Below, piece after piece: positions 620-1,659 of a stretch of DNA of 64,000 nt. Positions within the stretch are counted from its first letter, which is position 1. Every line of letters starts with the position of its first letter. This DNA is from Candidatus Zixiibacteriota bacterium. Lineage in GTDB: Bacteria > Zixibacteria > MSB-5A5 > SM23-73-2. The stretch is taken from NCBI GenBank assembly GCA_030615745.1, contig JAUWYR010000007.1, positions 1 through 64,000 of the forward strand, given 5' to 3'. The notes under the pieces are model-generated. The model made no database searches and was not told the DNA's origin. It worked only from the letters and a program-made list of their open reading frames with translations. A program made the translations under genes and the position numbers.

Positions 620-647
620 TTGACTTTTAAAAAAAATACCGTATAAT
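620..647 (+). promoter_or_regulatory. Sigma70-type promoter for the DUF1573 gene
   Basis: TTGACT at 620-625, a 16-bp spacer and TATAAT at 642-647. It lies about 48 bp before the ATG of the candidate selenoprotein gene, which also has a strong ribosome binding site (GGAGGAG at 685-691). A consensus promoter argues that the gene is expressed. Confidence 0.65.
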
Positions 648-694
648 ATAATAAAGTTTTCGAGATTTTGATGTAATCAAGTTCGGAGGAGAAG

Positions 695-1462
695 ATGAAA
701 AAAAACCTTTTGATTTTAGTTGTTCTCTTTTTATTTCTGTTCTCTTTTAATTCCTTTGCGGGAAAAAAAGAAGAGGAAAAAATAAGCAAGGGTAAACCCA
801 CCACATATTTTTCAGAGACTGAATTTAACTTCGGAAGAATGCCACCAAAATCTGCGGTTAGCCATAGTTACTGGGTCAAAAACATAGGGACAGACACTCT
901 AAGGATTATAAATGTGAGGCCTGGGTGAGGATGCACTAAAGCTCCTTTAAAGAAAAAGGAGCTTGCTGTCGGGGACAGCACTGAGATAGAGTTAATCCAT
1001 CATGCTTCTACCAGGGGCCGAGTACACAAATCAGCTACAGTGACCACAAGTGACACCACCTTAGGTAATATCAGGATCTCTTATTCCGGGGAGATCGGGT
1101 CATTCTCTGACACATCTTTTCCGGTTAACGTTGATCCCCCCATTCTGGACTTCAGTTCAAAAAACCATAAGAAAAAGACTAAAGTAAAAACCGTGATTAA
1201 AAATATAAGCGACCAAACTCTGAAGCTGGAAGTGGTCGATTATCCGCACAATCTGTGTAAAATAGCCCTTAGAAAAAGACTGCTTAAGCCCAACCAGAAA
1301 ACTGAGCTTTTAGTGAAGTTGAACCGAAGAATTACCCTTAATAAAATCGAGAAATCTGTTACTTTGGAATTAAACGACAAAAATCACACAAGATTCACCA
1401 TTCCGATAAAAAAACAGCCTCCGAAACCACAAAAAAAACCGACTACTTTGAAAAAAGGATAA
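695..1462 (+). CDS. Secreted DUF1573 protein, candidate selenoprotein with in-frame TGA at 926-928
   Basis: Reading through one TGA gives 255 residues. There is an N-terminal signal peptide (residues 1-22, hydrophobic core ending SFA). A DUF1573 domain follows: FNFGRMPPKSAV, then NVRPG-TGA-GCTKAP, then a VTTSDTTLG strand. In DUF1573 proteins the corresponding motif is PGCGCT, so the TGA falls exactly on the first conserved cysteine. The frame stays open for 177 more codons with good domain similarity and no further stop. A consensus promoter, a strong ribosome binding site and a terminator at 1466-1498 frame a monocistronic gene. Two adjacent perfect hairpins (939-964 and 965-979) follow the TGA, where a bacterial SECIS would sit. 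The alternative is a recent TGC-to-TGA nonsense mutation, giving 77 residues plus a dead remainder. The role of DUF1573 proteins is unknown; an exported or periplasmic redox or metal function is a guess. No sel genes are in the window. Confidence 0.65.
939..979 (+). promoter_or_regulatory. Candidate bacterial SECIS: two adjacent hairpins after the TGA
   Basis: Hairpin 1: AAGCTCCTTT (939-948), loop AAAGAA, AAAGGAGCTT (955-964), a perfect 10-bp stem. Its loop begins 20 nt after the TGA, inside the 16-37 nt window described for bacterial SECIS elements. The usual G in the first two loop positions is absent (G is fourth). Hairpin 2: GCTGTC-GGG-GACAGC (965-979) has loop Gs but starts 42 nt away. 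The two stems abut and could stack coaxially. Confidence 0.45.
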
Positions 1463-1465
1463 AAA

Positions 1466-1498
1466 AGAGGCGGAGATACTCCGCCTCTTATGTTTTTT
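1466..1498 (+). terminator. Rho-independent terminator of the DUF1573 gene
   Basis: Perfect 10-bp stem AGAGGCGGAG/CTCCGCCTCT with a 3-nt loop (1466-1488), then TATGTTTTTT. It starts 3 bp after the gene's stop codon. Confidence 0.85.
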
Positions 1499-1527: not shown

Positions 1528-1659
1528 CGGAACCAAACCTTCAGATACCTATCAGATGTGAATGGTGATTGCCAACTCAACCTAACTGACGTTATAATCT
1601 TAGCAAACTACTGTTTTGGGAAGCCTGTTGAAATCCACTGCGATTGCGGGCAAAATTAA
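1528..1659 (+). pseudogene. Orphan C-terminal dockerin fragment
   Basis: An open frame from 1528 (stop TAA at 1525-1527) to TAA at 1657-1659 encodes SDVNGDCQLNLTDVIILANY, then CFGKPVEIHCDCGQN. This is a single type I dockerin-like calcium-binding repeat ending in Cys residues, very like the C-terminus of the large protein at 24048-27935 (GDVNCDNLINIGDVIYLANY). There is no start codon or upstream domain, so it is probably the decayed 3' tail of a larger secreted protein. Confidence 0.7.

Follow-up and report, generated by a model that had tools for sequence, protein, structure and literature searches.

Organisation of the DUF1573 locus

Close to its start, the window, i.e. the whole 64,000-nucleotide stretch of DNA analysed here, carries a gene for a DUF1573 protein that is interrupted by one in-frame TGA. 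The gene and its signals comprise the following features:

620–647, forward strand: sigma-70-like promoter, TTGACT-16-TATAAT, 11 of 12 matches
685–691, forward strand: ribosome binding site GGAGGAG, just 5' of the ATG
695–1462, forward strand: DUF1573 gene, read as a selenoprotein gene; 255 aa with two Ig-like domains, Sec as residue 78 and a signal-like helix at the N-terminus
926–928, forward strand: in-frame TGA, taken to encode selenocysteine at the start of a U-G-C motif
939–964, forward strand: hairpin 1 (H1), arms 939–948 and 955–964, loop 949–954; proposed folded spacer
964–980, forward strand: hairpin 2 (H2), arms 964–970 and 974–980, loop GGG at 971–973; proposed SelB-binding part
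1465–1489, forward strand: intrinsic terminator-like hairpin of 11 pairs, followed by a T-rich tail

The open reading frame extends from the ATG at 695 to the TAA at 1460–1462, with the TGA as its sole internal stop. A preceding sequence-only reading had described a secreted DUF1573 gene with one TGA at this place, and both the frame and the match of the protein to PF07610 (DUF1573; two stretches, 81.9 bits against a curated cut-off of 26.1) agree with it. The consensus promoter, strong ribosome binding site and tight terminator it had named are present in the form listed above, and its figure of 177 codons past the TGA is right. The codon context, NVRPG-U-GCTKAP, likewise confirmed that the TGA takes the place of the first Cys of PGCGCT.

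The AlphaFold model of the protein (mean pLDDT 91) shows a signal-like helix at residues 2–22 and the strands of two Ig-like domains, with the U78-G-C80 motif placed at the turn between strands 69–76 and 80–82 of the first domain. Among solved structures, HYDIN/SPD-2-type domains and 2qsv come closest in fold; the Ig-like domains of HYDIN, SPD-2 and CEP192 as well as 2qsv of P. gingivalis share the predicted fold with both domains of the window protein, whereas sequence identity is low at 8–17%. A profile search of PDB sequences returned no match. HYDIN, SPD-2 and CEP192 are eukaryotic ciliary or centrosomal proteins, and 2qsv is a bacterial protein whose function is not known. A secreted redox or metal-binding role of the Sec–Cys pair is a reasonable guess.

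Just 5' of the gene, a fragment of a Mutator-family transposase (PF00872) lies at 61–588 on the forward strand. On the 3' side, an orphan dockerin-like fragment was read by eye at about 1557–1658 (forward strand; DVNGDCQLNLTDVIILANYCFGKP...CDCGQN, with a stop behind it), and no gene is evident 5' of it.

Selenocysteine machinery and reading of the TGA codon

In the genome (2.28 Mb, 98.6% complete), tRNA-Sec (selC), selD, selA and selB are clustered on contig C32. The tRNA-Sec scored 66.9 bits and was also found by ARAGORN; selA was identified from its translation and its place in the cluster, with no family-model score behind the name. The selD gene itself carries a TGA in frame at the usual Sec position and ends with another TGA. 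Among the relatives, selB was found in 53 of 59 genomes and selD in 55 of 59, where most copies contain a single in-frame TGA; correlating Sec-DUF1573 with selB was uninformative given this near-universal presence of selB. Many relatives additionally carry a Cys-form SelD, apparently fused to another enzyme in an open frame of 730–900 codons (L147–L149, L151, L153–L155, L157, L199–L209).

A protein-based scan of genome contigs found no relative, and the search was therefore made with a DNA pattern spanning the motif. The exact pattern PG-TGA-GCT[KQ]AP occurred at 86 sites in public genomes, most of them labelled Candidatus Zixiibacteriota. Since 85 of the 86 sites continue as open DUF1573 frames, the exception being a Halovibrio site (L074) with 13 codons past the TGA, the frame stays open far beyond chance. 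Of 59 related genomes, own genome counted, at least 48 have a DUF1573 copy whose TGA occupies this codon, and the UGA of the window gene aligns with Cys in homologs. Past the TGA, dN/dS ranges from 0.11 to 0.25 in close pairs, and the changes between the window gene and its nearest relatives fall mostly at third codon positions. TGA ends 9 of the 41 large non-overlapping ORFs in the window, and no second TGA-interrupted frame of this kind was detected within it.

An open frame past a TGA might also be expected if a near-cognate tRNA read through the codon, or if TGA were reassigned to Trp, Arg or Gly; this is very improbable in view of the alignment with Cys, the Sec genes in the genome, and the use of TGA as an ordinary stop, in the window ORFs as well as in selD. 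A nonsense mutation in a decaying gene is more improbable still. The window copy does adjoin a transposase fragment, and the sole same-genus genome (G001, 86% complete) yielded no Sec copy, but the conservation of the TGA already contradicts decay, the frame is intact and under purifying selection, and promoter, terminator and SECIS are intact as well. Both readings, the recoded genetic code and the nonsense mutation, were rejected.

We regard it as virtually certain that the gene at 695–1462 is a genuine selenoprotein gene. The sequence-only reading had proposed Sec in place of Cys and held a changed code to be unlikely, and every check it called for came out in favour: dozens of DUF1573 homologs have TGA at exactly this codon, all four sel genes are in the genome, a conserved SECIS-like RNA absent from the Cys homologs follows the TGA, and the 3' half is under purifying selection. 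The RNA signal, which departs from the standard bacterial SECIS model, had not been visible to it.

Relation to the OS_HP2 family

Whether Sec forms of DUF1573 had been described, left open by the same reading, is settled by OS_HP2, a selenoprotein that was reportedly predicted by Zhang and Gladyshev in 2007. It remains a known but poorly studied family. In selenoprotein tables, OS_HP2 or Sec DUF1573 is listed in PMC9312934, PMC13188914 and PMC2398784, and its motif is given as UGC (PMC13188914). The window protein shares with it the Pfam domain PF07610, the Sec position and the UGC motif, Sec being at the first position of U-G-C in DUF1573; it differs in having two domains and in coming from a candidate phylum for which Zixiibacteriota is the most frequent label. 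Two OS_HP2-type sequences are found in the ocean survey table, compared to about 100 here. Against the NCBIfam model of OS_HP2 (NF041425), the window protein scored 73.4 bits, which is below the cut-off of 100, yet every one of the 28 aligned members matches it at E 0.001 or better, and because of this the window protein is best placed, from these profile scores, as an outlying member or sister of the known family and not as a new kind of selenoprotein.

Spread and Sec/Cys switches within the phylum

Labels of other phyla among the pattern sites (Ignavibacterium L129, Calditrichota L106 and L128) were followed up as a possible wider spread, which was rejected as these genomes fall in the phylum of the window. 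The spread of Sec DUF1573 through one candidate phylum, mostly labelled Zixiibacteriota, is new within the literature searched.

A tree of 114 rows requires 19 changes among three labels, namely Sec with two-hairpin SECIS, Sec with another SECIS, and Cys; for the Cys state, at least 10 changes are forced by well-supported branches. Tandem DUF1573 neighbours often differ, with one Sec and one Cys copy. Repeated Sec/Cys switches between tandem copies, as the tree suggests them, are also new within the literature searched. Cys copies still score 24–46 bits with the two-hairpin RNA model, and these scores may be remnants of a lost SECIS.

Several loci (L026, L030, L037, L054, L081) contain two to three Sec-DUF1573 genes in a tandem array. 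In the second DUF1573 gene of the window's own genome (G000:C53, L018), CCC replaces UGC, and rhodanese-like and DoxX-like frames adjoin it, these neighbours being named by eye. In 47 of about 73 related loci, convergent genes of one protein family lie beside Sec-DUF1573 (L050, L053, L066, L068 and others), on the opposite strand about 0.6–3.5 kb 3' of the Sec codon and often as two copies side by side. The family is absent from the window; a GWxTD domain was detected in the one convergent neighbour tested (L068).

Two hairpins behind the UGA

RNA positions are numbered from the T of TGA as 1. H1, at about 14–39, folds in all 92 of 92 Sec genes with at least 4 pairs and a median span of 24 nt. 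H2 pairs 39–45 with 49–55 and has the core GCUGUC-GGN-GACAGC, its loop consisting of an invariant GG plus one base. In the window, base 964 can leave H1 and pair with 980 in H2.

Synonymous shuffling with the protein kept fixed gave, for positions 16–60, a mean z of −2.7 in Sec genes versus −0.35 in Cys homologs; for positions 13–42, covering H1, the values were −2.25 and 0.01, and windows elsewhere in the same Sec genes were at about −0.3. The codons of H2 are strongly biased compared to the rest of the genes: GCT for Ala in 92/92 (22% elsewhere), GTC for Val in 85/85 (30%), GAC for Asp in 89/93 (40%) and AGC for Ser in 88/93 (18%). In the same columns of the Cys homologs, the Ala and Val codons vary freely, whereas Asp and Ser mostly stay GAC and AGC. 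Compensatory changes were found at H1 pair 18–35 (12 sequences) and at H2 pairs 39–55 (8 sequences) and 43–51 (G-C to A-U, 3 sequences), and pair-keeping double changes in both hairpins amounted to 19 cells versus 9.5 in shuffles. In Sec genes, unlike in Cys homologs, both hairpins are under selection. The register of H1 varies, 74.5% of the cells pairing in the common register, and RNAalifold prefers a pairing of 4–5 with 19–20 and 8–9 with 16–17 (invariant bases) that excludes H1.

Searching Rfam gave no match at gathering scores. A covariance model of both hairpins matched in 59 relatives only where DUF1573 matches coincide, and in the own genome its score was convincing only at the window copy. 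No two-hairpin bacterial SECIS was found in the literature searched, within which the predicted two-hairpin RNA of the commonest Sec-DUF1573 form is new.

Other forms occur in the same gene family. At L175–L179, L180–L183 and L185 the SECIS differs: it consists either of one long hairpin or of a hairpin with an AGUU loop at 29 nt, which suggests SECIS turnover at one codon. In DUF1573 families f6 and f15, the single hairpin lies at 29 nt without a consistent H1, whereas f12 genes have just one long hairpin.

Comparison with the bacterial SECIS model

The published bSECIS model requires a G within the first two positions of the loop, which should lie 16–37 nt from the UGA (PMC13188914). H2 of the window (loop GGG, 7 bp, −8.4 kcal/mol) shares with the bSECISearch consensus (PMC13188914, Fig. 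2A) the location in the coding region 3' of the UGA, the 3-nt loop with GG in its first two positions and the stem of 6–7 bp; it differs in that its loop lies 42 nt from the UGA, beyond the range of the model, with a second conserved hairpin in between. The H1 loop, about 20 nt from the UGA, is inside the range, and in the window it reads AAAGAA, without a G at its start. A scan of the window copy revealed no model-conforming hairpin at 16–37 nt. With a limit of −7.5 kcal/mol, a G-loop hairpin lies beyond 37 nt in 67 of the 105 Sec genes scanned and within 16–37 nt in 19.

In E. coli fdhF, where one continuous hairpin lies 3' of the UGA instead of two, the apical loop also contains GG and is 18 nt from the UGA. 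Subtracting the H1 span from 42 nt gave a median of 18 nt (quartiles 16–20; 92 Sec genes), so that the path here equals that of fdhF if H1 is folded out.

selD as an independent comparison

Among the Sec selD genes of the phylum, 7 have a single hairpin with the G[U/G] loop at exactly 20 nt, and 20 have the loop at 32–33 nt and a predicted fold upstream of it. The modelled selD H1 covers positions 16–28, i.e. 13 nt, and 33 minus 13 is 20. For the two-hairpin structure, 39 double-change cells were counted, while shuffles gave 13.4 and slid controls no more than 16. Synonymous-shuffle z was −2.1 for the H2 region and about −1.1 for H1, with 0.1 and −0.4 in Cys selD. In unconstrained folding, the upstream fold spans 11–25 nt and leaves a path of 18–20 nt in 9 of 20 genes, exactly 20 in 5; one single-hairpin selD gene (L188) also folds upstream. 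The selD spacing of 33 nt is already inside the published range. The Sec selD genes of the phylum follow the same plan as DUF1573, which is new within the literature searched.

Proposed mechanism

Beyond the observed codon, machinery, conservation and hairpin selection, we propose that tRNA-Sec and SelB would insert selenocysteine at the UGA at 926–928, allowing the mRNA to be translated through. The predicted product is secreted and consists of two Ig-like domains of the HYDIN/SPD-2 type, with Sec-Gly-Cys in a turn of the first domain, where the Sec–Cys pair would do redox chemistry. From the loop of H2 we infer that SelB binds this hairpin, the GG being the likely contact. H1, of about 24 nt, stands between the UGA and H2; folded out, it would leave a path of about 18 nt, as long as the one in E. 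coli fdhF. H1 probably acts as such a folded spacer because the selD loop lies at 20 nt with one hairpin and at 33 nt with two. To this explanation as a whole, including Sec insertion, binding of H2 by SelB and the spacer role of H1, we assign a probability of roughly 0.6.

If selenocysteine insertion is accepted, H1 could instead have no spacing role, H2 alone being the SECIS and H1 a lineage accident or a structure of other use. The variable register of H1, the competing alternative fold and the weaker selection on H1 in selD speak for this, but H1 covaries, is absent from Cys DUF1573 homologs, and recurs in the unrelated gene selD, where the loop shift of 13 nt equals the modelled H1 span; we consider such an H1 unlikely. 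Somewhat less likely again is that SelB reads H1 as the SECIS and that H2 is accessory, e.g. in slowing the ribosome. H1 lies at a normal distance, is selected in Sec genes only, and f12 genes apparently rely on an H1-like hairpin alone; against this stand the window loop without a starting G, the small share of genes with a conforming hairpin in range (19 of 105), the invariant GG of the H2 loop, and Sec selD, which puts its G[U/G] loop in the hairpin past H1 or alone at 20 nt. H1 might also slow the ribosome or aid readthrough instead of spacing.

Returning to H1 as a folded spacer, a single fixed effective distance is not universal, because f6 and f15 use a single hairpin at 29 nt and f12 one long hairpin. 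For the broader proposition of a distinct two-hairpin class of bacterial SECIS, in which H1 as spacer leaves a path of about 18–20 nt in at least two unrelated genes of the phylum (DUF1573 and selD) and which the spacing rule misses when the spacer is long, we see the odds as even.

Recognising bacterial SECIS elements is difficult, and there are known selenoprotein genes that depart from the SECIS consensus without an explanation (PMC13188914, PMC12013277). Within the phylum, genes that place the loop at differing distances form a natural series, and spacing minus the folded spacer would be a simple rule, open to reporter testing. With its many Sec/Cys switches between tandem copies, this selenoprotein family would be useful for learning what Sec adds over Cys.
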